Source of the DNA: Candidatus Neomarinimicrobiota bacterium
Lineage (GTDB): Bacteria; Fidelibacterota; UBA2242; B5-G15
Assembly (NCBI GenBank): GCA_017656425.1
Contig: JACDNV010000028.1
Span: 1-17,036, forward strand
Direction of reading: 5' to 3'
DNA: 17,036 bases
The notes beneath the pieces are model-generated. The model had not been told where the DNA came from and did not search any database. It saw only the letters and a program-made list of their open reading frames with translations. Within the stretch, counting starts at the first letter, position 1; each line of letters begins with the position of its first letter. The position numbers were made by a program, and so were the translations under genes. Positions 1 through 16,857 of this stretch are shown here, one piece after another.

Positions 1-1
1 G

Positions 2-1120
2 AGATATGATTTCTACAATTTTAATACTGAATATTATGCGGATAAATTTTCTCCTCATAGAGTTGAAGGGACTACGAATGTTATAAACAAAGAAGAGGCA
101 GAAAAGGGAAAAACGAAATTTACTTCTTTATTAGAACCAAGAATAGGTTTGTCATTTCCAATCTCTGAAAAGTCTGTCTTGTATTTAAATTATGGTGTAT
201 TTTTACAAAGACCACCATTTGAAAGGATTTATACCAATATTATAACTGTTAATAAGACTGAGCCTAACTACTATGAGTTAGGAAATCCAAGACTAAAGCC
301 CATGAGGACAATATCATATGATATGGGCATTTCCAGAATATTGCCTGGAGGATTTAATCTCAATGTCAGCGCTTATTTAAAAGATGTGAGTAATTTGATC
401 CAGTATTCATATTATGAGGATCTGAATGGTTATTTCTATTATACCTTTGATAATAGAGAATATGCTGATGTAAAGGGGTTTTATGTAAGTCTTGAAAAAA
501 GTTATGGTAATATATCTGGTTATATAAAATATAACTATGAATCTGATAAAGGAAAGGCAGCTGAAGATATTGGAGGTGGCGGTGCAAGGTCAAGATATTA
601 TGAAGCTGATCCGGGTTTAACTGTACAAAATCCACCGGAGGATATCTATTTAGACTATAACAGGTTACATAGAATTGTTGCCAGTTTAAATTTATTGGTT
701 CCAGGTGGTATTAAGCTAATAGAGGGAACAAATGTAAATATTACTTACAGATTCTTGAGCGGTAGACCGTTCACTTATGATGAGAAAGGATTGGGACTGA
801 GAATGAATAAAAGAACTCCCGATGAACATCATTTAAATTTTAGAATAGCTAAAACTTTTGAAATAGATAATGTTAAAGCCACCTTCTTCTTTGAAGGTTA
901 TAATATGTTGAACTACATGGTTTTCAATTATGATAGAGTATTTGGCTCAATGCAGGGTGGTGAGTTTGTGGAAAGATATGTAAAATATGAAAGTGGTGAA
1001 ATTTCTTTAGAGGAATTTTTAACAGATAATGATTTTTATCCATTTATAACCAGTCTTGATGCATATTTGATTAGTAATCAGCCAAGGCATTATAGAGTGG
1101 GAATAACTTTCAATTTTTAA
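2..1120 (+). CDS. TonB-dependent receptor, C-terminal beta-barrel (5' truncated)
   Basis: The frame is open from the left edge, giving 372 visible codons before TAA; an internal ATG at 149 is not the real start. The visible part looks like the last half of a TonB-dependent outer-membrane receptor barrel: a 'LEPRIGLSFPI' strand near the start (the usual 'xPRxGxxYPI' barrel signature), alternating hydrophobic and aromatic strands, 'LNYGVFLQRPPF', and a terminal 'RHYRVGITFNF' ending in Phe, as expected for BAM-dependent insertion. Plug and TonB box lie outside the window, so the substrate cannot be read. The next gene starts 15 nt downstream, so it is the first visible gene of a five-gene operon. 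Its place beside polysaccharide lyases suggests uptake of glycan oligomers (inference). No SusD-type partner follows; an 810-aa sorted protein occupies that position. Confidence 0.85.
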   Translation, partial: RYDFYNFNTEYYADKFSPHRVEGTTNVINKEEAEKGKTKFTSLLEPRIGLSFPISEKSVLYLNYGVFLQRPPFERIYTNIITVNKTEPNYYELGNPRLKPMRTISYDMGISRILPGGFNLNVSAYLKDVSNLIQYSYYEDLNGYFYYTFDNREYADVKGFYVSLEKSYGNISGYIKYNYESDKGKAAEDIGGGGARSRYYEADPGLTVQNPPEDIYLDYNRLHRIVASLNLLVPGGIKLIEGTNVNITYRFLSGRPFTYDEKGLGLRMNKRTPDEHHLNFRIAKTFEIDNVKATFFFEGYNMLNYMVFNYDRVFGSMQGGEFVERYVKYESGEISLEEFLTDNDFYPFITSLDAYLISNQPRHYRVGITFNF

Positions 1121-1135
1121 TAAGCTGGAGGGGCG

Positions 1136-3568
1136 ATGTTGTTCAAAAAGAGATTTAATCTAATGGTTATGTTTGTAAACGTAATTGCTACATTTTTGGT
1201 AGTATATACTCCTTCGATTGCACAGGTGGTTGGGACAAGGGAGCGCGCATATCATGAGCGAGGTATGATTAGGGAAACGTTGTATAATGATGGTGTAATT
1301 TCCCGCCCTTGGATAATATGCAAGTGGCCAGGACCTGGAGAATATTTGTTCGAGTGGCCGAAATATTCAGAAACTTATATTGATGGGCAGTATTATTATG
1401 GACATCACATGTCGCATGGTGGCGGAGTGTTTATATCTGCTAATTTAAGGAGTAAGCATACAAAGGAAGAAAGGATTTATGCATTTTGTGGTGGTACCGG
1501 TGAGAGAACTCAGACACAAGAACCATACGGTACATGGAGTTTTCCAATATCCATGAAAAAAATTGAGAATTATCCCTTATTACCTAATGGCGATATAAAT
1601 CCTGATTTTAATCCCGATGAGGCTGAAGAGATAATAATAGCAAAATGGGCTACTCCTGTTGGTATAACTGTTACTAGAACTTCAAGAGCGTGGAGCTATC
1701 CAGATTATGATGATATGATAATTTATGAATACCTATTAGTTTACGATGGTAATACTGATAGTGATACATCAACGATTGAGATGGATTATGATGGAGATGG
1801 TAAACCGGATGAAGATCTCGTAGATGTATTGTTTCATATCAGTCATTCATTTGCAACTAGTATGTTGGGATTTAACAGGTGGTATCCACCTTCGAGGGGA
1901 GAATATTATATAGGTTGGTTTTATGATGAATATCAGGGGATTTATAGACAAGATTTACGTTGGTCTTTTGATCCAGATTATTGGCTATTGTTCAATACTA
2001 CAGTGCATACAGGTTCTGAAGATACTGATAGAGAATGGTGGGCATATAAGCCAGAACCTGATCCTGATCATTTTATGGAATTTGCCACGACTAAGTTAAA
2101 TGGTGGAGGTCTGTTAGGTGCTGGTTGCCCTGGATTATGTTTATTGTATTGGGATACAAATCATTTAGCAAACCTAAATCCAAATGATCCTAACAGAGAT
2201 CCTACTTTATATAATTTGTTAAAAGATGCTAATGGAGAGTATTTTGAATTAGATGAGAATGGTCATATAAAGCAGCCGTGGAATATGAAGAATGGGACAC
2301 CTCGTTCTTCTGTTGTTAAAGTTAAAGATAGAGCATGCGACATGGATGAAAGATGGTGGACAGTATACGGTAAAGTTGGAGTTCCAAAAGGAGTGCCATC
2401 GGATGGTAATATGTATGTACTTCCAGATGGTAAAACGTGGTATGGAAGAGCGCGATTTGAATGGGATGAAACATATAATGGGACACAAATAAACAATGGT
2501 TATGGTCCATATGTTTTAAAACCGGGCGATAGCCTTGAATTTGCGTACGCAACAGTGATCGGTTATGGAGGAACTGATACCAAGATATGTTGCGGTGGGC
2601 AAAGAGATAAGCAATTTTTCAAAGTTAGGACGCTTCATAGGCCGATAATATTAAACGAAACTGACCACGATACAGAGTATGATACTGATACAGAGATAGA
2701 TACAGTATTAATGACGGATGATTATTTAGGGGAGTTTGGTTATCCTGATTACATTAATTCTGATTCAATAATTACGGTTAACCAGGTAGCTCATAAAGCG
2801 CAGGAAGCATATATAGGAAGACCATTACCTTGGGATCCAGAGAATAATATTCCAGAAGTAATTGTTTTTCCGGAGGATAATCCTAGACCATCAAAAAATC
2901 CGTGGAAATATAAAAATATACCGATTCCGCCTCCTGCACCTGTATTAAATATAGTTAACACAAGTAACGGTAAAGTTAAAATTACATGGAAGCCAACTCC
3001 AGAGCAATTTGAAAACTTGTTTCCGAACGATGTTACTGGTAGGCTCGTAAAATATTATATATGGAGATCAGAAAGGAAGAATGGTCCTTGGAAATTATTG
3101 GATTCGCTAAATGTTGGCGAAGGTTTGAATGATGATGGGCTATATGAATACGTAGATGATGATCCTGCATTTAAACTGGGAACTACAAAGTACTATGCAG
3201 TAACAAGTGTTGATAAAAATGGTTATCAAAGTGGTAAAACAAATATTACAGAGCATACGAGGGAATTAGCTAGTGTAGAAAAGATGGGAAAAGTATATGT
3301 AGTTCCTAATCCATTTTACGTAAAATCCGGTTTTGTTGATAATGATAAGATGATAAAGTTTTATGGTTTGCCTGAAAAGTGTGAAATAAGAATTTATAGT
3401 TTTTCCGGGCAACTAGTTGAAACTATACATCACGATGCGGATGTAAATTCTGATACATGGTTTCAAGTTACTAGAAACAATCAGGATTTAGCATCAGGAA
3501 TATATTTCTTTGTGGTAGTTGCAGAAAATGGTGACAAATACACAGGCAAATTCGTAGTAATAAAATAA
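1136..3568 (+). CDS. Secreted surface protein of unknown function with FN3-like domain and T9SS sorting tail
   Basis: 810 aa. ATG is preceded by GGAGGGG (1127-1133). A signal peptide spans about residues 1-30 (ending 'PSIAQ'). The large N-terminal core (about 31-590) has no domain I can name; it is rich in Trp, Tyr and Asp, has a Cys pair (C485-C486) and a calcium-loop-like 'DYDGDGKPDED' at 217-227. A fibronectin III-like domain follows (about 600-708, ending 'KYYAVTSVDKNGYQSG'), then a type A T9SS sorting domain (about 712-810: 'VVPNPFYVKSGF', 'IRIYSFSGQLV', 'LASGIYFFVV', 'GKFVVIK'). It should be exported by Sec, moved across the outer membrane by T9SS and anchored or released. From memory, proteins of this build often follow TonB receptors in Calditrichota/KSB1-type genomes, where their role is unassigned. 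A glycan-capture role analogous to SusD is only a hypothesis. Confidence 0.85.
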   Translation: MLFKKRFNLMVMFVNVIATFLVVYTPSIAQVVGTRERAYHERGMIRETLYNDGVISRPWIICKWPGPGEYLFEWPKYSETYIDGQYYYGHHMSHGGGVFISANLRSKHTKEERIYAFCGGTGERTQTQEPYGTWSFPISMKKIENYPLLPNGDINPDFNPDEAEEIIIAKWATPVGITVTRTSRAWSYPDYDDMIIYEYLLVYDGNTDSDTSTIEMDYDGDGKPDEDLVDVLFHISHSFATSMLGFNRWYPPSRGEYYIGWFYDEYQGIYRQDLRWSFDPDYWLLFNTTVHTGSEDTDREWWAYKPEPDPDHFMEFATTKLNGGGLLGAGCPGLCLLYWDTNHLANLNPNDPNRDPTLYNLLKDANGEYFELDENGHIKQPWNMKNGTPRSSVVKVKDRACDMDERWWTVYGKVGVPKGVPSDGNMYVLPDGKTWYGRARFEWDETYNGTQINNGYGPYVLKPGDSLEFAYATVIGYGGTDTKICCGGQRDKQFFKVRTLHRPIILNETDHDTEYDTDTEIDTVLMTDDYLGEFGYPDYINSDSIITVNQVAHKAQEAYIGRPLPWDPENNIPEVIVFPEDNPRPSKNPWKYKNIPIPPPAPVLNIVNTSNGKVKITWKPTPEQFENLFPNDVTGRLVKYYIWRSERKNGPWKLLDSLNVGEGLNDDGLYEYVDDDPAFKLGTTKYYAVTSVDKNGYQSGKTNITEHTRELASVEKMGKVYVVPNPFYVKSGFVDNDKMIKFYGLPEKCEIRIYSFSGQLVETIHHDADVNSDTWFQVTRNNQDLASGIYFFVVVAENGDKYTGKFVVIK

Positions 3569-7727: not shown

Positions 7728-7749
7728 GTTAGTTAAGTTTGTTTTGAAT

Positions 7750-7788
7750 AAAAGAGGGCTGGATTTTCCCCAGCCCTCTTTTGTTTTT
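7750..7788 (+). terminator. Intrinsic terminator after the first operon
   Basis: A perfect 13-bp stem: AAAAGAGGGCTGG (7750-7762) pairs with CCAGCCCTCTTTT (7770-7782) around a 7-nt loop, followed by G and five T (7784-7788). It lies 22 nt after the stop of the beta-helix gene. The stem is almost symmetrical in A/T tracts, so it may also work for antisense transcripts. It separates the two transcription units. Confidence 0.93.
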
Positions 7789-7930: not shown

Positions 7931-10900
7931 ATGAAAAGTTTATTTAAGGTAGTATTATTTTCTTTTGTCTTTTTAATATTTAGTTATGCTTACGGGACGG
8001 TGACGGAGGTGGAAGCAGGTATTGGTACTTTGGAACAGGCGATTGAAAATGCCCAACCAGGTGATACTATAGTACTAATTACCAGTGGAGGTAAATATCT
8101 TGATACGACACAAGTAGTAATTGATAAGGATCTGGTAATTATGGGAGCTGAGGGTCTTGCTAATAAACCGATAATTGAATATGTTGGAGAAAGCACTTCT
8201 GCGTATATCTTCAAAGTAGTAGGTTCACCGAAAGTTACATTGGTTAATTTAGAAATCAATGGAGATGGTACTGCAGATGGAGCAGCAGGTAAGGCGAAAT
8301 ATGCTTTAAGATTGGATAATGAAGATCCAAATGGCAGTATGATAGTTAAGGTGTATGATTGTATAATGCATGACTTTAAAGAGAAGATTATCAAGCCTTA
8401 TGGAAATTGTGGTATTGATTCATTAATTGTGAAAAATAGTATTTTTTACAACGGTGCTAAAGAAGGAATAACATTGTATTCGGGCTCGTCAAGTGATCCA
8501 GCTGTTGTACTCGATTATGCGGAGATAACTAATTGTACTTTCTATAATTTTGCAAGAGAAGCCATTAAGGGCGATACCTATACTGATGCGAAAGTAAGAA
8601 TTAATCATTGTACGATTTATAACTGTGGTGGGACTAGTAAATCTATGATGTATTTTGATGATATGGCTGATGTAGAGGTTAAAAATTCGCTTTTTGTAGG
8701 TAATAGTTACGATGATTATTTTGCGCGTTTTGAATCAGAGGAAAGTATTTTTAAATACAATGGTGTGTGGGATGTCTTTAATCCGAAAGTACAAGATGCC
8801 ACTGTCACTGATACTTTTCATTTAGATCCTCTTTTCCAGGATCCTGACAATGGTAATTTTTATTTAGCTGAGAACTCACCCGCTCGAGGAAAAGCTGATG
8901 ATGGTCATGCTTTGGGAGATTTGAGATGGGAGGAAGTGCCCGGTAAGTATATTTTATCCGTTGTTATTGAAGGAGAAGGTAGCTATGAATTGTATCCTCC
9001 TGGTGGTGTGTATGACCCTGGTACAGAGGTAACCATAACAGCTATACCTGAGACCGGGTGGAAAATAGATCATTGGGAACCTTCTAATTTTCCGCCTGAT
9101 GGTGAGACGATGACAGTTACAATGGATGGAAATAAAACTGTGGTAATTGTTTTTGCACCAATGGTGGAAGAATTATCTTATGAAGTTGTGGGAATCGGTC
9201 ATTTGGAATTCGATCCTGCACCAATTGATACAACAGAAACGGGGTTTTTGTTCAAACAATATAGTGATGTCCAAATAACTGCTGTGTCAGATACAACCTC
9301 TATGGCATTCAAAGAGTGGCAGGGAGATGTTACATCCACTGATAATCCAATTACGGTGTCTATGGATTCCAGTATTTTCCTATTAGCAGTCTTTGAGCCG
9401 GTTGTTCCACAGTGTTCATTGAATGTAGAAATAGCTGGATTAGGTAATGTGATTCAAGTACCAGAACCATATGGATTTTATGAGTCTTATGACAAAGGTA
9501 CCGAAGTAATGTTAGTTGCAGAACCATTTATTGGATGGAAATTTGATGGGTGGTCGGGAGATACGACTTCTACTGAGGATACGATTGTTGTCACCCTGGA
9601 TTCGACTGTAGATATTGTAGCGAATTTTAGCGAAATACAGGTTGCAGGAGGCAGGATTGAAATAGAAGCCGATGAAACAGTTAATACATTGTATTGGGCA
9701 ATAGAGTATGTTAGAAATACTAGCGTCGATACCATTGTGCTGGCTACAGATGGTGGTGTATATGAAGCGGATGAGTTTATTAATGTAAATACGAATGTAA
9801 CTATAATGGCAAAAAAAGGATTGGCGAAAAAGCCTATAATAAAGGGCAATCCAGATCCAAGTTATTCATCGGGTATATTCCAGATAAAAGTGGGTGAAGA
9901 GCAACCGATCAGGTTTTCACTTATTGGTGTAGAGGCGTATGGAGCAAAATATACAGTAAGAACTGATGATGATACAGTAAGGGCGATAATAAAAGTAGAT
10001 AGTTGTTACTTCCATGATGCAGGTGAAGTATTGGTAAAGGTATATCCAAAATCGTTTGTGGATAGTTTAATAATTACTAATACAAAATTCAGAAATAGTG
10101 GGAAAGAAGGTATTTATTTGAAAGAACCGAACACTATAGGATATCTAAATGTTGAAAATTGTACTTTTATCCACATTGCGAGAGAAGCAATAAGAGTAAG
10201 AGATAATGATGATATGACAATTTTCATTAATCACTGTACTTTTGATTCTATAGACTATGATAAAGACTATAGGATGATATATCCAGAAGGTGTAAATAAT
10301 GTTACAATAAGGAATTGTATTTTTGCAAATCAGCTTGGTTCGAATGATGAGGTATTTAAACTATATGGTGAATCGGTTGCCGATCATATATTGTTGTGGA
10401 ATACAGCTACTGAGATAGAGCGAGAAGGAGAAGCGTGGATAGATGAGGAAACTATATGGAGTTTTGATCCAAAATTTGTAGATCCATCTACTGACGATTA
10501 CACTTTGTCTGCAGAGTCTCATGCTTATGATATAGCGAGTGATGGATTGGCCTTGGGTGATCTTAATTGGGCAACAGAAGAGCCTATACATGTATTTTTA
10601 ACTGTAGAAATACAGGGAAATGGTAAGGTAAGTATGGAGCCTCCTCCAGTTGGTTTAAGCTACGATCCAGGTACATCGGTAACGCTAGTTGCTGATCCCG
10701 ATAGTGGATGGGTATTCAAAAGTTGGGAAGGTGACATTACTGGATCTGATAATCCTATCAGTGTAGAAATTAATGATGATATGCATGTTGTAGCAGTTTT
10801 TGAAGTTAAAACCGGGATTTCTGAAGAGGCAATTCCTGCTGAATATGAACTATCACAGAATTATCCAAATCCTTTTAATGCGAGTACGGTTATAAAGTTT

Positions 10901-11101
10901 GCTATTAAAGAGGAAGGACATACCACATTGTCCATTTATGACTTAATGGGAAGGGAAGTTATGCGATTGATTGATGAGGTCAAGAAGCCCGGCTATTATC
11001 AGGTATATTTTAATGCAAGTAAACTGCCATCCGGTGTATATTTCTATAGGTTAGAATCGGGTGATTTTGTTAGTATAAAGAAAATGTTGTTAGTGAAATA
11101 A
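7931..11101 (+). CDS. Large secreted protein with two beta-helix modules, four InlB-type B-repeats and a T9SS tail
   Basis: 1056 aa. ATG follows GGAGG (7921-7925) by 5 nt. Signal peptide about 1-22 ('FSYAYG'). Order: beta-helix 1 (about 23-335; 'NAQPGDTIVL', 'GLANKPII', 'INHCTIYNC', closing 'DPLFQDPDNGNF...ALGDLRW'); three divergent InlB B-repeat-like domains (about 340-410, 414-490, 495-567; 'YDPGTEVTITAIPETGWKI'-type); beta-helix 2 (about 571-882; 'VDTIVLATDGGVY', 'GLAKKPII', 'INHCTFDS', 'ALGDLNW'); a fourth B-repeat (about 886-958; 'YDPGTSVTLVADPDSGW'); type A sorting domain (971-1056, 'LSQNYPNPFNASTVIKF'). The two helices align cap to tail, so the protein arose by internal duplication of a helix-plus-B-repeat unit. 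No PL6 catalytic Lys/Arg motif is visible in either helix. Likely role: cell-surface glycan binding or scaffolding; an unknown catalytic activity cannot be excluded. It is first in the second operon, ahead of two lyases. Confidence 0.85.
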   Translation: MKSLFKVVLFSFVFLIFSYAYGTVTEVEAGIGTLEQAIENAQPGDTIVLITSGGKYLDTTQVVIDKDLVIMGAEGLANKPIIEYVGESTSAYIFKVVGSPKVTLVNLEINGDGTADGAAGKAKYALRLDNEDPNGSMIVKVYDCIMHDFKEKIIKPYGNCGIDSLIVKNSIFYNGAKEGITLYSGSSSDPAVVLDYAEITNCTFYNFAREAIKGDTYTDAKVRINHCTIYNCGGTSKSMMYFDDMADVEVKNSLFVGNSYDDYFARFESEESIFKYNGVWDVFNPKVQDATVTDTFHLDPLFQDPDNGNFYLAENSPARGKADDGHALGDLRWEEVPGKYILSVVIEGEGSYELYPPGGVYDPGTEVTITAIPETGWKIDHWEPSNFPPDGETMTVTMDGNKTVVIVFAPMVEELSYEVVGIGHLEFDPAPIDTTETGFLFKQYSDVQITAVSDTTSMAFKEWQGDVTSTDNPITVSMDSSIFLLAVFEPVVPQCSLNVEIAGLGNVIQVPEPYGFYESYDKGTEVMLVAEPFIGWKFDGWSGDTTSTEDTIVVTLDSTVDIVANFSEIQVAGGRIEIEADETVNTLYWAIEYVRNTSVDTIVLATDGGVYEADEFINVNTNVTIMAKKGLAKKPIIKGNPDPSYSSGIFQIKVGEEQPIRFSLIGVEAYGAKYTVRTDDDTVRAIIKVDSCYFHDAGEVLVKVYPKSFVDSLIITNTKFRNSGKEGIYLKEPNTIGYLNVENCTFIHIAREAIRVRDNDDMTIFINHCTFDSIDYDKDYRMIYPEGVNNVTIRNCIFANQLGSNDEVFKLYGESVADHILLWNTATEIEREGEAWIDEETIWSFDPKFVDPSTDDYTLSAESHAYDIASDGLALGDLNWATEEPIHVFLTVEIQGNGKVSMEPPPVGLSYDPGTSVTLVADPDSGWVFKSWEGDITGSDNPISVEINDDMHVVAVFEVKTGISEEAIPAEYELSQNYPNPFNASTVIKFAIKEEGHTTLSIYDLMGREVMRLIDEVKKPGYYQVYFNASKLPSGVYFYRLESGDFVSIKKMLLVK

Positions 11102-11102
11102 T

Positions 11103-11107
11103 GAGGG
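11103..11107 (+). promoter_or_regulatory. Ribosome binding site that decides the start of the lyase gene
   Basis: GAGGG directly abuts ATG 11108, which is too close to serve it, but is 9 nt from in-frame GTG 11117. The GTG start also gives a better signal peptide beginning 'MKRKVLNL'. It lies just after the upstream stop codon (11099-11101), so translational coupling is likely. Confidence 0.55.
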
Positions 11108-11116
11108 ATGCGCTAC

Positions 11117-13483
11117 GTGAAAAGAAAAGTTTTGAACTTAAAAACAGGCCTGTTTTTTAAGACAGGCCTGTTTTTTATCATATTTTTTATAGGTATTTCT
11201 AATTGTGTGAAAAAGGATAGTTGGATCAGTGGTGATATTAAGGGCGTTAGTTATAGTAATATACCACGTGATAGATTATTATCTGATGGTGAGCTTGTGC
11301 GATATATCAACATTGGGAAAGGTGTTCTTCCTGGATATTACGAAAAGCTTGAAATAGGTGATACATTTGGGGCTCTGAAAATATTTGGTGAATATATAAA
11401 AGAAAGAAAGGTACCTCGCTATTTTTTTGATAAGGATAATATTGACAAAAAGATAGAGTATTACAAGAAAAATTATCGTGCAGCATTGTATTATCATAAG
11501 ATGCGAGCAGATGCATTTATTAATACATTTGGAGTAGACCTATTCTGGAAATTGCCAGCGAGGGACCTTTTAGGAAGGGATTATACACCTAACACTATAA
11601 GGTTGGTTGCCAGGCAGCAAAACTCGATTGATATGGCGTTGGCATATCATATAAATAGGGAAATAGACTATTATTACAAATTTATTAGTATGGTAAAAGA
11701 TTTTGTATCTGATTTAGAATCTGGAAATGTTGAGACTGGTGCGAATAGTATTTTTGAAAGATTTTATGCTGGGATACGAATTAGAAACTGGTTATTTAGT
11801 TATTATATGTTTTCTGATCTACTATCTCCGGAAGATCATATTTTATTTTTGAAGGTATTTTTATTACATGCTGCCAATTTATATGATACATGCCGTAAAT
11901 TTCACTGGGGTAATCACCAATTGCATGGTCTTGAAGGTTTGTTTGAAATTACCACTATGTTTCCTGAACTGACTCCTATGCGGGATTGGAATAGAGTAGC
12001 GATAGACTTAATTATAGAACATATAAAGAGAGAAATTAAAGAAGATGGTTTTCATCATGAGAGAGCTTCCCATTATTATAGAAAGGATTTAAAGAATTAT
12101 ATACGAGTGTTCCTCTTGGCGAGGAGAAATGATATTAATATGGGGGATCTTTTTTATAAGAAATTCAGGAATATGTTTGAAGCTGCTATGAAAATAATAA
12201 TGCCCAATGGTAGATTGCCCGTGCTACAGGATGAGCAGGAGATAGATGTTAACGATGGAATATATTTTGACAAAAATCGAAAAGCGTATTTTATGGATAA
12301 CAATATAGCAGAGTTGCATGATCCTCCTATTTCGAGCATGTTAGCGGTGGGTGCGTATATTTTCAAAGATTCAACCTATCGGTACTATAGTGATAATGTA
12401 TTTCCTATGGAGTTTTATTGGTATTTTAATGATGTAGCGCTCAATGAGAGGTATTTAGATATAGGCGTAAAAAAACCAAAGTATACGTCTGTGGCTTTGA
12501 AGAGTAGCGGTTATTATGTGATGCGTAGCGGATTGAAACCAACTGATAATTATATGATTATAGATGCTGGGTTAGCTAAAGATAAGCCTGATCATACACA
12601 TGGTGGGCAATTAGGGGTTATTCTTTTTGGTAAAGGATTAACTTTATTGCCTAATTATAAAGTAAAGTATGGTGACCCATCATTTAAGTCAATGAAAAAT
12701 TCATTTTTTAAAAATGTGGCATTGTGTGATTATATACCACTGGCTGATGGTTGGATAAGTAATAAGGCAAGAACGGGATTTGGAAAATGGAGCAGATTAG
12801 CAGATGTGGATGTAATTGATTGGATAACAACGGATAATTATGATTATTTTGCTGGTACTCACCATGCCTATGATTCAATTGGTGTAAAGTATATCCGTGA
12901 AATAATATTTTTTAAGCCAAAATGTTGGGTGATAATAGATAGGTTTAAATCAAATGATTTTCATAATTATGTACAAATTTGGCAAGGGGAGTATAATAAA
13001 ATTGATTATGATTATAATAAGATTGTTATGATGAAATCTCCTATTAAGTTTACAATACAGCAAGCTGACCCATCAAAGATGTTTATTCATCAGTATGAAG
13101 ATTTTGGTAAAGAATATGTGATTTTCGAGAAAAAAGGTAAGTGTAGTTGTGATTTTATAACGGTTTTATATCCTGAACTAATAGCAGTTGATAGAGACTT
13201 TGGGGTTAAGTATTTTGAATATAAGGATTATGATTTAACCACAATAACTGTAAATGAATACACATTTCATTTGTATAGACGAAAGAATTATGTAAAGGAC
13301 GATTTCGTCGAGACTGATGCTAGATTGGTTTTAATATCGAAAAGGCATGGTAAACCATATAGTGTAATGATGTATGATGGATCGAAAATTTCATACGATA
13401 AGCTTAATTATAGGTTCAAAAGTAATAAGACGGTAACATTCAATAATATTAATAATAATTGGAGTATTCTAGAAATTAATTAG
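11117..13483 (+). CDS. Heparinase II/III-type polysaccharide lyase, probable lipoprotein
   Basis: 788 aa from GTG 11117 (ATG 11108 would add three residues). The N-terminus has basic residues, a hydrophobic stretch and a lipobox-like 'GISNC' with C30, suggesting a lipoprotein; Asn at -1 is unusual. Residues about 60-360 are the alpha-helical toroid: 'GDTFGALKIFGEYIKERKVP' resembles the Hepar_II_III_N segment; 'WGNHQLHGLEGLFEI' supplies the Asn-His pair (N266, H267); 'EDGFHHERASHYY' supplies E315, R316 and Tyr 320/321. The C-terminal beta-sandwich (about 455-788) carries 'PDHTHGGQLGV' with H493/H495. These match the Asn/His/Tyr/His active-site set of the heparinase II/III clan (PL12, PL15, PL17, PL21), which cleaves uronic acid polymers by beta-elimination. 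I cannot separate the families by eye; PL17-like alginate oligosaccharide lyase is likely from the PL6 neighbour. There is no T9SS tail, unlike its neighbours. The 5' end contains the tandem repeat described separately. Confidence 0.85.
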   Translation: MKRKVLNLKTGLFFKTGLFFIIFFIGISNCVKKDSWISGDIKGVSYSNIPRDRLLSDGELVRYINIGKGVLPGYYEKLEIGDTFGALKIFGEYIKERKVPRYFFDKDNIDKKIEYYKKNYRAALYYHKMRADAFINTFGVDLFWKLPARDLLGRDYTPNTIRLVARQQNSIDMALAYHINREIDYYYKFISMVKDFVSDLESGNVETGANSIFERFYAGIRIRNWLFSYYMFSDLLSPEDHILFLKVFLLHAANLYDTCRKFHWGNHQLHGLEGLFEITTMFPELTPMRDWNRVAIDLIIEHIKREIKEDGFHHERASHYYRKDLKNYIRVFLLARRNDINMGDLFYKKFRNMFEAAMKIIMPNGRLPVLQDEQEIDVNDGIYFDKNRKAYFMDNNIAELHDPPISSMLAVGAYIFKDSTYRYYSDNVFPMEFYWYFNDVALNERYLDIGVKKPKYTSVALKSSGYYVMRSGLKPTDNYMIIDAGLAKDKPDHTHGGQLGVILFGKGLTLLPNYKVKYGDPSFKSMKNSFFKNVALCDYIPLADGWISNKARTGFGKWSRLADVDVIDWITTDNYDYFAGTHHAYDSIGVKYIREIIFFKPKCWVIIDRFKSNDFHNYVQIWQGEYNKIDYDYNKIVMMKSPIKFTIQQADPSKMFIHQYEDFGKEYVIFEKKGKCSCDFITVLYPELIAVDRDFGVKYFEYKDYDLTTITVNEYTFHLYRRKNYVKDDFVETDARLVLISKRHGKPYSVMMYDGSKISYDKLNYRFKSNKTVTFNNINNNWSILEIN
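11140..11176 (+). terminator. Terminator-like hairpin inside the 5' end of the lyase gene
   Basis: AAAAACAGGCCTGT (11140-11153) pairs perfectly with ACAGGCCTGTTTTT (11162-11175), giving a 14-bp stem with an 8-nt loop (11154-11161) and ending in a run of six T (11171-11176). It is 38 nt after the stop of the upstream gene and within the lyase signal-peptide codons. It could end transcription of the upstream gene, act as an attenuator relieved by ribosomes translating the lyase leader, or be a coincidence of the duplicated palindrome. The T run is largely consumed in pairing, as in A-tract/T-tract terminators. Confidence 0.55.
11141..11176 (+). repeat. 18-bp tandem duplication encoding KTGLFF twice
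   Basis: Two adjacent in-frame 18-bp units (11141-11158 and 11159-11176) differ at one base (third base of the Lys codon, A versus G). Each contains the palindrome ACAGGCCTGT and encodes Lys-Thr-Gly-Leu-Phe-Phe. Together they form most of the hydrophobic part of the lyase signal peptide. Confidence 0.92.
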
Positions 13484-13517
13484 GTGTTAAATCGTTATTA
13501 TTTCTGGTTCATTGTAT

Positions 13518-13522
13518 GGAGG
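13518..13522 (+). promoter_or_regulatory. Ribosome binding site that decides the start of the PL6 gene
   Basis: GGAGG lies 8 nt before ATG 13531. An upstream in-frame ATG at 13516 overlaps this site and would have no ribosome binding site of its own, so 13531 is the better start. The gap to the previous stop (48 nt) shows no terminator or promoter. Confidence 0.75.
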
Positions 13523-13530
13523 TTAGCAAA

Positions 13531-16500
13531 ATGAAAAAGTTAGATTTGTTGTTTTTGATTTTAAGTTGCTTTTTCCTTAGCAATGTTGTAGGTGAGGGGA
13601 TCATAGTTAATAATTTGAGGGACTTTGAAAGTGAGATAAGTAATGCTTCGCCGGGTGATACAATTGTGTTAGAGAATGGGGTATACGATGTATCCGAAGG
13701 TCCTATATATATATCATATATAAATGGTGAGGAGTCAAATCCAATAGTAATAAAATCAGAAAGTGTTTTGGGAGTAGAAATTACCGGCGAGTATTCATTC
13801 TATGTTAAAAACAGTTCCCATGTGGAAATAAATGGATTCAAAATAACTCAAAAAGTTAAATCAAATTGTTTTAAGATTGAAAGTTCTAATAATATTAGAG
13901 TTACAAATTGCTATTTTGATCCTCATGAGGATGGGAGTAAGAGTTATTGGTTATATGTAACAGGAGAGTCTAAGTATATAAGGATAGATCATAATGAATT
14001 TAATACAAAGTATGATGAAGGGTGTTTCATAGTTGTATATGGACCATCAGATGGTATCAGCCAATATGTAACAATAGATCATAATTACTTTAAAGGGCAT
14101 TATTTTACTGGTTCTAATGGAGGAGAGGCAATTAGGTATGGTGACAGTAAAAGGCAGAATTATCCTTCACATGCTGTAATAGAGTATAATCTTTTTGAGG
14201 ACTGTAATGGAGATCCAGAAGTGATTTCTGTTAAAAGTACGAATCTGACAGTACGTTGGAATACACTAAGAGAATGTAATGGTTCAATGGTGTTGAGACA
14301 TGGGGATAGTTGTAATGTGTATGGTAATTTTATAATGAATGGACATGGAGGTATACGGTTTTATGGAGATAATCAAAAGATAATAGGAAACTATATCTTT
14401 GATTGCGATGATATCGGAAGGGATGGGTCCCAATCAGATGTCTTAGCAGCAATAGCAATTGGTGCTGGGGATAAAGATGATTTAGAGAATGGTCAGAATA
14501 CATATGATAGACCGGAGGACTGTATTGTAGCGTATAACACTCTTTACATGAACAAAGGTAAAAACATAGCAGTGGGTGTATTAGGTTCAACGTCTTATCC
14601 CCCCAAAAATGTACAAGTTATTAATAATGTAGTTGTGAGTAATAACAATAAATGTCTTGAGATTTTAAAAAATCCAATAAACTTAACATTTTGTAGTAAT
14701 ATTTTTTATGGTAGTACATCTCATGGAGATATTGATACTGGGTTTACATGGGTAGATCCTATGGGTGTTTTGGATGAGATGGGAGTCTATCATGTAAAGG
14801 AAGGTAGTCCTGTTATTGATAATGCAGTTACTGTAGATGGGCTTGGCTTTTATGATATAGATATTGATGGACAACATAGAGATGCTAGTTATGACATAGG
14901 AGCGGACGAGTTTAGTGGTACTCCAGTAGTAATAAGGCCATTAATGCCGTGGGATGTGGGTCCCCAGAAGGAAAAAATTTGTAGATCTGTTGAAGATATA
15001 TTGAACGCTTTAAAAAATGCTTCACCTGGGGATAAGATACTTGTAGAACCGGGTGAGTATATCTCCGATGGATTTAATTCTGGACACGAGGAAGCCTATT
15101 ACTATAGTAATATTGATGGATTAGAGGATAAACCAATAATATTTGCATGTACGGACACCGATACATATGCTGCACTAAAAGGTACAAACATAGAGGAGAG
15201 AAATGTTCTATACATAACTGGAGATTACTGGCATATAGGTGGGTTGGATATTAGTGGTGGTTTGAGAGGGGTGGTGTTAGATAATGCAAATAATGTCATT
15301 TTAGAAAATTTGAAAGTTCATGATGTAGGGCAGGAGGGTATTCATATTAGGGATGGTAGTTCGTTTGATATTGTAAGAAACTGTAGGATATACGATACTG
15401 GTCTCAAAATACCTGGATACGGGGAAGGTATATATGTTGGTTCTGCTGTCAATCATTGGGATGAATTCGATGAAAGGCATTATTTTGTATTAATTTCTAA
15501 CTGTATAATAGGTCCAGGAGTGACGGCTGAACATGTAGATATAAAAGAAGGAACATGGGGAACAATAGTAGAGAACTGTACATTCTATGGAGAAGGTATT
15601 ACTGGAGAGAATTATGGAGATAGTTTCATGGATGTTAAGGGAAATTATTCTATAATAAAAGATAATGTTGGATATTCACAAAATAATTCAATTATTGAGG
15701 ATGCTTTTCAGGTGCATTTAAAAGAGTCAGTGTGGGGAAGAAACAATATATTTTATGGTAATACTTTATATCTTGATTTTCCAGAGCAATATGTCGTGGA
15801 TGTTTCATCTGGAGCTTCAGCAGTAGTAAAGGATAATGTCCGTATACCACCTGGCAATATGTATAAAGGGAACTACGAAGTAGTAGATGAATTGCCCCCC
15901 ATTGTAACTATAGCAAGCCCTGAGGATGAGTCTGTATTTGATCCGGGTACACAAATTGAAGTAGAAGCGTTAGCATATGACGCAGATGGGAGTATTGACA
16001 AGGTGGAATTTTTTGTAGATGGTGAAAAGATAGCCGTTGACTATTATCCTCCATATGAGGCGAAAATTGAAAGTATGCCAGCAAAAGAGATAAAGTTATG
16101 GGCAGTTGCAACTGATAATAATTCAAATGTGAGTGTTTCTGATACTGTATTAATTATGTGTTCGACGATTTTTAAGATTCCTATACAGAATATTGTTGAT
16201 ATAGAAACTGATGAGAATAATGAGCGTAATGCAGTTGATGGAGATTATGAGACATATTGGAGTGTATATGGAGAGAATGGTTGGTTGTGGATTAAGTTTG
16301 ATGATATTTATGAGGTTGACTATATGAAGATATATTTCTATAAGGGAGATGAGAGGGAGTATTATTTTAGTATTTACTCATCATTAGATGGCTTTAACTG
16401 GGAATTAATTAAAAAAGATACCAGTGATAAAAAGGAAGGTTTCCAAACTTTTAATCTACCAAATACTAACGCTATGTACTTTAAATATGTAGGTAATGGA

Positions 16501-16857
16501 AATAGTGTAAATCTTTTCAATAGCATAGTTGAAATTGAAATATGGGGAAAGAGGGTAGAGGCTGATATTGAAAATGAGGATGGAGCAATTGCAAGAGATG
16601 TTATCTTAAAACAAAATTTTCCAAATCCATTTAATAGCATCACGAATATAAAGTATTATATACCAAATAAATCAGAGGTCAAGTTGCAGTTGTATAATTT
16701 AAAAGGTGAGCTTGTAAAGACTATAGTAAATTGTGTGCAAGAACAGGGAGAATATCATATAAGGCTCGATGGTGAAAGTTTATCCTCTGGGATATATTTG
16801 TGCAGACTAATAGCTGGTGATGAGATAAAGACAATCAAGATTGTTCTAATTAAATAG
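13531..16857 (+). CDS. PL6-family polysaccharide lyase (alginate lyase/chondroitinase B type), multidomain, T9SS-sorted
   Basis: 1108 aa. Signal peptide about 1-22. Beta-helix 1 (about 24-462) is PL6: 'NASPGDTIVLENGVY' cap, 'GGEAIRYG' (197-204), 'GDPEVISVKS' (227-236) and 'LRHGD' (255-259). K235 and R256 are 21 residues apart, as in the catalytic pairs of chondroitinase B (K250/R271) and AlyGC (K220/R241). N196, D228 and E230 fall at the spacing of the AlyGC calcium ligands N181, E213 and E215, with Asp for one Glu. Beta-helix 2 (about 482-785) restarts with 'NASPGDKILVEPGEY' and has 'GEGIYVGSAV' and 'AEHVDIKEGTWG'. Then a bacterial Ig-like domain (about 789-876, 'DADGSIDKVEFFVDG'), an F5/8 type C/CBM32-like discoidin domain (about 879-1008, 'AVDGDYETYWS', 'EIEIWG'), and a type A sorting tail (1024-1108, 'LKQNFPNPFNS'). 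It eliminates at uronate residues in alginate or dermatan/chondroitin-type chains at the cell surface; substrate is not decidable by eye. It is last of the lyase operon. Confidence 0.9.
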   Translation: MKKLDLLFLILSCFFLSNVVGEGIIVNNLRDFESEISNASPGDTIVLENGVYDVSEGPIYISYINGEESNPIVIKSESVLGVEITGEYSFYVKNSSHVEINGFKITQKVKSNCFKIESSNNIRVTNCYFDPHEDGSKSYWLYVTGESKYIRIDHNEFNTKYDEGCFIVVYGPSDGISQYVTIDHNYFKGHYFTGSNGGEAIRYGDSKRQNYPSHAVIEYNLFEDCNGDPEVISVKSTNLTVRWNTLRECNGSMVLRHGDSCNVYGNFIMNGHGGIRFYGDNQKIIGNYIFDCDDIGRDGSQSDVLAAIAIGAGDKDDLENGQNTYDRPEDCIVAYNTLYMNKGKNIAVGVLGSTSYPPKNVQVINNVVVSNNNKCLEILKNPINLTFCSNIFYGSTSHGDIDTGFTWVDPMGVLDEMGVYHVKEGSPVIDNAVTVDGLGFYDIDIDGQHRDASYDIGADEFSGTPVVIRPLMPWDVGPQKEKICRSVEDILNALKNASPGDKILVEPGEYISDGFNSGHEEAYYYSNIDGLEDKPIIFACTDTDTYAALKGTNIEERNVLYITGDYWHIGGLDISGGLRGVVLDNANNVILENLKVHDVGQEGIHIRDGSSFDIVRNCRIYDTGLKIPGYGEGIYVGSAVNHWDEFDERHYFVLISNCIIGPGVTAEHVDIKEGTWGTIVENCTFYGEGITGENYGDSFMDVKGNYSIIKDNVGYSQNNSIIEDAFQVHLKESVWGRNNIFYGNTLYLDFPEQYVVDVSSGASAVVKDNVRIPPGNMYKGNYEVVDELPPIVTIASPEDESVFDPGTQIEVEALAYDADGSIDKVEFFVDGEKIAVDYYPPYEAKIESMPAKEIKLWAVATDNNSNVSVSDTVLIMCSTIFKIPIQNIVDIETDENNERNAVDGDYETYWSVYGENGWLWIKFDDIYEVDYMKIYFYKGDEREYYFSIYSSLDGFNWELIKKDTSDKKEGFQTFNLPNTNAMYFKYVGNGNSVNLFNSIVEIEIWGKRVEADIENEDGAIARDVILKQNFPNPFNSITNIKYYIPNKSEVKLQLYNLKGELVKTIVNCVQEQGEYHIRLDGESLSSGIYLCRLIAGDEIKTIKIVLIK

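Follow-up and report, generated by a model that had tools for sequence, protein, structure and literature searches.

Gene context and start of the lyase

The window, i.e. the whole 17,036-nt stretch of DNA analysed here, belongs to a deep-sea bacterium of Candidatus Neomarinimicrobiota. A gene for a secreted beta-helix protein, a heparinase II/III-family lyase gene and a chondroitinase-B-like gene follow each other on the forward strand (Table 1). GTG 11117 is the likely start codon of the lyase, because ATG 11108 reads ATA in a 95.6% identical relative (L011/G001, Candidatus Neomarinimicrobiota isolate B5_G15) in which the GTG is unchanged. This start lies 15 nt past the upstream stop. As read from the translation, the lyase N-terminus comprises an n-region KRK, a hydrophobic core GLFFIIFFIGIS, and a non-canonical lipobox I-S-N-C. 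The chondroitinase-B-like gene begins 32 nt past the lyase stop and is thus also located downstream of the hairpin described below.

Table 1 Features of the lyase locus and of the loci used for comparison; plain numbers are positions in the window
Feature	Position	Strand	Remarks
Ordinary intergenic terminator, upstream of operon (yardstick)	7746..7786	+	17-bp stem, score 30.3
Upstream gene: secreted beta-helix protein	7931..11101	+	Pfam: DUF5123, InlB-B-like repeats; type IX secretion C-terminal tail
Stop codon TAA of upstream gene	11099-11101	+	
Heparinase II/III-family lyase gene	11117..13483	+	Pfam Hepar_II_III_N 2.9e-28, Hepar_II_III_C 2.9e-7
GTG start codon of lyase (likely)	11117..11119	+	kept in relative L011, where ATG 11108 is ATA
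Signal-peptide codons, VKRKVLNLKTGLFFKTGLFFIIFFIGISNC	11117..11206	+	from translation; core formed by unit 2, U-tract and following codons
Terminator-like hairpin	11140..11175	+	16-bp stem, UUUA loop, -22.4 kcal/mol
Unit 1 (KTGLFF)	11141..11158	+	18 bp, AAAACAGGCCTGTTTTTT
Hairpin GC core	11145..11170	+	
Unit 2 (KTGLFF)	11159..11176	+	18 bp, AAGACAGGCCTGTTTTTT
U-tract, TTTTTTATCATATTT	11171..11185	+	directly 3' of GC core; terminator score 34.6
Chondroitinase-B-like gene	13516..16857	+	Pfam Chondroitinas_B 2.1e-37; type IX secretion tail
rplQ terminator / GHL10 signal peptide	L150:1486-1560 (G000:C10)		homologues L151-L161, L178-L197
Barrel / secreted protein / dnaX-like locus	L080:1497-1560 (G000:C14)		also L081-L089, L162-L174

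Sequence and fold of the hairpin

Recomputation confirmed the duplicated palindrome described in an earlier, sequence-only reading of this DNA: two 18-bp units (11141-11176) are 17/18 identical and both contain ACAGGCCTGT. The same bases serve as hairpin and as KTGLFF-KTGLFF codons within the lyase ORF, likewise as proposed. Shifted by one A, unit 1 is a perfect 18-bp palindrome (11140-11157), one of three such palindromes in 417 kb. The minimum free energy (MFE) stem consists of 16 bp, including one G-U and six GC pairs, with a 4-nt loop, and is followed by T6. The 14-bp stem with an 8-nt loop put forward in the sequence-only reading represents this helix minus its two inner pairs. Counted from the upstream stop, the end of which is at 11101, the stem begins after 38 nt, in agreement with the earlier figure, and the GC core after 43 nt; counted from GTG 11117, the distances are 23 nt to the hairpin and 28 nt to the GC core.

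The folding calculation that had been suggested as a check is in line with a stable structure. Besides the energy of the stem itself (Table 1), the 141-nt region around the hairpin folds with a z-score of -4.5, and none of 200 shuffles was equally good. In the MFE and centroid folds alike, the terminator helix alone is prominent around this site. Two hallmarks of an intrinsic terminator are present at 11140-11185, namely a GC-containing stem-loop and a U-tract directly after the stem. Searches with the Rfam 15 covariance models at gathering threshold gave no match in the window, L150 or L092, and no relatives were found among viral contigs. A repeat family or uptake-sequence pair was considered and rejected, as the motif is absent elsewhere in the genome and, among 61 relatives, copies with three mismatches are confined to G001.

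Terminator quality compared to chance

The hairpin was rated with a d'Aubenton-Carafa-type terminator score, which allows for comparative use only. On this scale it reaches 34.6 compared to 30.3 for the intergenic terminator at 7746, with a formula and energies that follow E. coli and 37 °C conventions and may not suit the RNA polymerase and growth temperature of the host. The genomic background comprised 1.62 Mb of stretches with 1309 ORFs and 1.33 Mb of coding interior. Scores of at least 20 occurred 27 times in intergenic DNA, three times in the first 110 nt of ORFs, and never in the coding interior (Fisher P = 0.0008). The three start-proximal sites are the lyase hairpin, the rplQ-GHL10 locus (see below), and a site ahead of hisG with an uncertain start. 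When the signal peptide of the lyase was recoded synonymously according to genomic codon usage, the observed score was reached in 1 of 10,000 sequences.

The pre-hisG site (L092, minus strand; CCCGGGTTCTCAGGTGAGGGAGTTGAGGACCCGGG + T6, score 36.3) lies about 75 nt before the hisG-like start and is possibly a his-operon attenuator. It was set aside as a further terminator within an ORF because the true start is probably past the hairpin. At L074:10445, a long hairpin lacking a U-tract directly follows a stop codon, ahead of a gene that probably encodes a lipoprotein and truly starts some 78 nt farther downstream. The idea that signal peptides are generally prone to hairpins via complementary Lys (AAA) and Phe (TTT) codons was dismissed: signal-peptide genes fold slightly less than other genes, and their observed folding minus the synonymous null is approximately zero.

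These numbers bear on an alternative according to which a palindromic stretch of 18 bp underwent a recent in-frame tandem duplication and the resulting hairpin is tolerated without a regulatory role. A duplication of this kind could accidentally have placed a terminator in an essential export signal, at a cost to the cell. A duplicated palindrome folds automatically, so that the palindrome, its repetition and the hairpin are linked coincidences rather than independent ones, and unit 1 contributes nothing essential to the signal peptide. Still, only 25 of 20,000 random duplicated KTGLFF codings were as stable as the lyase hairpin, and the absence of terminator-quality sites from 1.33 Mb of coding interior argues against mere accident.

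Conservation among relatives

The lyase hairpin is known from two near-identical copies only, the second being that of L011/G001, where the hairpin is identical and both units are retained. This identity is uninformative with respect to selection, as about 1.2 changes are expected (dS 0.088, dN 0.017) and none was seen. The hairpin is missing from the distant lyase homologues L005, L007, L008, L009 and L013, which occupy other gene contexts and show ordinary signal-peptide codons. The sequence-only reading had named orthologues with ordinary codons as evidence against its proposal; this applies to the distant homologues, whereas the 95.6% identical relative keeps the hairpin. The narrow distribution counts in favour of a recent accident. 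Conversely, the geometry of the site matches an overlap of terminator and signal peptide that is conserved across the phylum (see below), and we consider an accidental origin without function unlikely on balance.

The two genomes also speak to the notion of a slippage-prone phase switch that gains or loses one 18-bp unit. The repeat is direct and in frame, and deletion of one unit in silico yields the product VKRKVLNLKTGLFFIIFFIGISNC while the terminator score drops from 34.6 to -47.9. Of the predicted consequences of such a loss, removal of the hairpin was thus borne out, and shortening of the hydrophobic core was not, since the core of VKRKVLNLKTGLFFIIFFIGISNC is intact. With a single slip at the repeat, the genes would escape termination and export would not suffer. 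The comparison of unit copy number, proposed as a check of the phase switch, gave two units in both the window and L011/G001; no one-unit variant was seen in this small sample. As the repeat moreover consists of two 18-bp copies rather than a long array, a phase switch is regarded as highly improbable.

Two side observations concern the origin of these contigs. Positions 1-3435 and 8183-13462 of the window are 95-96% identical to G001, which is placed in another genus, and one core region is 77% identical; this reflects either a recent horizontal exchange of the polysaccharide locus or mis-binned contigs. A lyase of 46% identity comes from a contig of 3.6 kb that carries the label Candidatus Dadabacteria (L012, DCAB01000018.1) and could have been mis-binned or transferred.

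Terminator and signal peptide at two other loci

The architecture of the lyase site, a hairpin with U-tract about 25-60 nt past the upstream stop and inside the next signal peptide, is shared by two other loci. One of them, L037:14469, was found by scanning start-proximal codons. Here the genes are ordered rpoA, rplQ and a gene of the GHL10 family, the signal peptide of which (MKKIVYFKRAVNVAAFFFLITF) is encoded by GGCAGTTAATGTGGCTGCC + T9. Of 61 genomes, 57 contain a homologue of the GHL10 gene; 32 of these homologues, representing many families of the phylum, were inspected at their 5' ends. A terminator-like hairpin within the signal-peptide codons is present in all 32, each preceded by an in-frame start. 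The distance from the rplQ-like stop to the hairpin is 35-50 nt in the 19 homologues printed in full, and the spacing from start to hairpin is near-constant. The hairpin scores above zero in 31 of 32 homologues compared to 3.4 expected from synonymous recoding (P <= 0.05 in 31), figures which are not strict probabilities as the codon usage of G000 was applied throughout and relatives were treated as separate.

Hairpin sequences differ between the GHL10 homologues and stem pairs co-vary. In the 19-nt group, 98.7% of cells pair and both sides have changed in 15 cells (shuffled mean 5.1); in the 21-nt group, 96.3% pair and both sides have changed in eight (shuffled 1.5). The rows of this comparison are the best hairpin per region, which favours pairing, a bias that is limited by slid controls and by a synonymous null that likewise takes the best hairpin. 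At this locus, codons have been selected for the hairpin, and its geometry is conserved. The overlap of terminator and signal peptide is best supported at the rplQ-GHL10 junction.

The second locus comprises an outer-membrane-barrel-like gene, a secreted-protein gene and a dnaX-like gene, names that derive from reading the sequences; a Pfam search of the secreted protein ahead of the dnaX-like gene gave no match. Strong hairpins of unrelated sequence lie inside the start of the secreted-protein ORF in G000, G001, G003, G004, G012, G013 and G014, and a terminator is found immediately ahead of the ATG in G008, G011, G016 and G017. The U-tract is poor in the hairpins of several genomes. Judging from these sequences, the locus looks like an evolutionary series in which the terminator moves from before the gene to inside the gene.

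Proposed mechanism and competing explanations

Based on terminator quality, the recoding null and, by shared anatomy and geometry, the comparative data from rplQ-GHL10, the lyase hairpin is attributed to the intrinsic terminator of the upstream gene, overlapping the signal-peptide codons of the lyase and acting as a partial terminator (attenuator) of the lyase and chondroitinase-B-like genes (estimated probability roughly 0.6). At the lyase, we infer from the letters of the DNA that transcription terminates in cells, that read-through is partial and that regulation results. A factor-independent terminator 38-43 nt past the stop would serve the beta-helix gene. Because the lyase starts just 15 nt past this stop, the terminator falls inside its signal-peptide codons; the signal peptide of the next gene would have expanded across the preceding gene's terminator. 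Since codons for hydrophobic residues are rich in U, a U-tract can serve as Phe, Leu or Ile codons, and at the lyase it would double as Phe and Ile codons within the hydrophobic core. When RNA polymerase exits the upstream gene, it is predicted to stop at the hairpin in some passes. Every lyase transcript must cross the hairpin because it sits in the coding sequence, and being unavoidable there it would make expression of the lyase and chondroitinase-B-like genes dependent on read-through; the polymerases that pass would transcribe both, and the element would set the ratio of the first to the later genes.

Distances of this order are compatible with efficient termination in E. coli, where a terminator more than 30 nt past a stop reaches its full efficiency of about 0.9 and terminators located in the initial 100 bp of coding regions are functional (PMC4824070). 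Once a ribosome has started at GTG 11117 and advanced by at least a few codons, it may block the hairpin, resulting in a weak translation-dependent relief. A stronger version of this idea holds that the hairpin is a translation sensor, lyase expression hanging on ribosome loading at GTG 11117 and signalling, e.g., export or translation capacity. The 28 nt between GTG and GC core and the intrinsic-terminator anatomy would suit such a device, and the pil1 attenuator (PMC3894217) provides a precedent. As in leader-peptide attenuators, the terminator is in a translated region where the regulated gene begins; there is no distinct leader peptide closed by a stop codon of its own, the frame running into the lyase. 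Against a sensitive sensor stands the weak effect of translation in E. coli, where a terminator 30 bp past the start codon lost about 10% of its efficiency when translated (PMC4824070), which favours a fixed partial terminator. Ribosome-controlled attenuation therefore appears doubtful, albeit the least improbable of the alternatives. Accordingly, the attenuator of the sequence-only reading gains indirect support from score, recoding null and the other loci, and its ribosome-dependent melting is plausible but less likely than a fixed partial terminator.

The hairpin might also act after transcription, either as a ribosome-termination structure that limits reinitiation or as a stabiliser or processing site of mRNA ends between cistrons. 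It sits between the first and second cistrons, and reinitiation in bacteria responds to stable structures past stop codons (PMC7518266). However, the conserved rplQ-GHL10 design includes a U-tract, which a stability or reinitiation element would not need. A general enrichment of strong hairpins past stops in tight gene pairs was also sought in this genome and no clear enrichment emerged. We deem a post-transcriptional role improbable.

Returning to the partial terminator, a wider reading has, in our estimate, slightly better than even odds: in Neomarinimicrobiota, terminators of upstream genes would have been kept by selection inside the signal-peptide codons of the next gene, with rplQ-GHL10 as a co-evolved, dual-coded case and the lyase as a young, tandem-duplicated instance. 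Export signal and transcription stop would then be one element that permanently attenuates the gene of the exported protein. At rplQ-GHL10, the terminator of a ribosomal-protein gene would spell out the signal by which a secreted enzyme is exported, hydrophobic U-rich codons and U-tracts sharing bases. By this reading, genes of secreted proteins that follow highly expressed genes should be inherently attenuated, and for the window it yields a specific model of the expression ratio in a polysaccharide-degradation operon. It also serves as a warning, as gene callers and terminator callers each throw out the call of the other.

Comparison with known systems

Intrinsic terminators are usually viewed as intergenic elements or as parts of leaders. 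The terminator at 7746-7786 equals the lyase hairpin in quality of stem, loop and U-tract, but is intergenic whereas the latter lies in codons. A hairpin with U-tract in the first ~100 nt of a coding sequence, shortly past an upstream stop, is likewise seen in tR2 constructs in E. coli (PMC4824070) and among ORF-internal 3' ends (PMC7815308). Those cases are engineered or scattered; here, the elements encode signal peptides and, at rplQ-GHL10, co-vary across a phylum. Ribosome termination structures (PMC7518266) resemble the lyase site as stable mRNA structures shortly past an operon stop codon. Conversely, they require no U-tract, and their proposed target is reinitiation rather than RNA polymerase.

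The pil1 attenuator of Streptococcus gallolyticus (PMC3894217) shares with the lyase a repeat-containing translated region beside a premature terminator, which in pil1 is reported to follow the leader stop by 39 nt. It is phase-variable, with a terminator placed after a separate leader peptide and before the structural gene. Unlike in pil1, the lyase terminator is located in the signal peptide of the structural gene itself, and variation in repeat number was not seen in the two genomes. We found no described case of a terminator overlapping a signal peptide in the open-access literature, although prior description is uncertain. The double use of the same bases at the lyase and two other loci suggests a previously undescribed throttle on the second gene of a pair.
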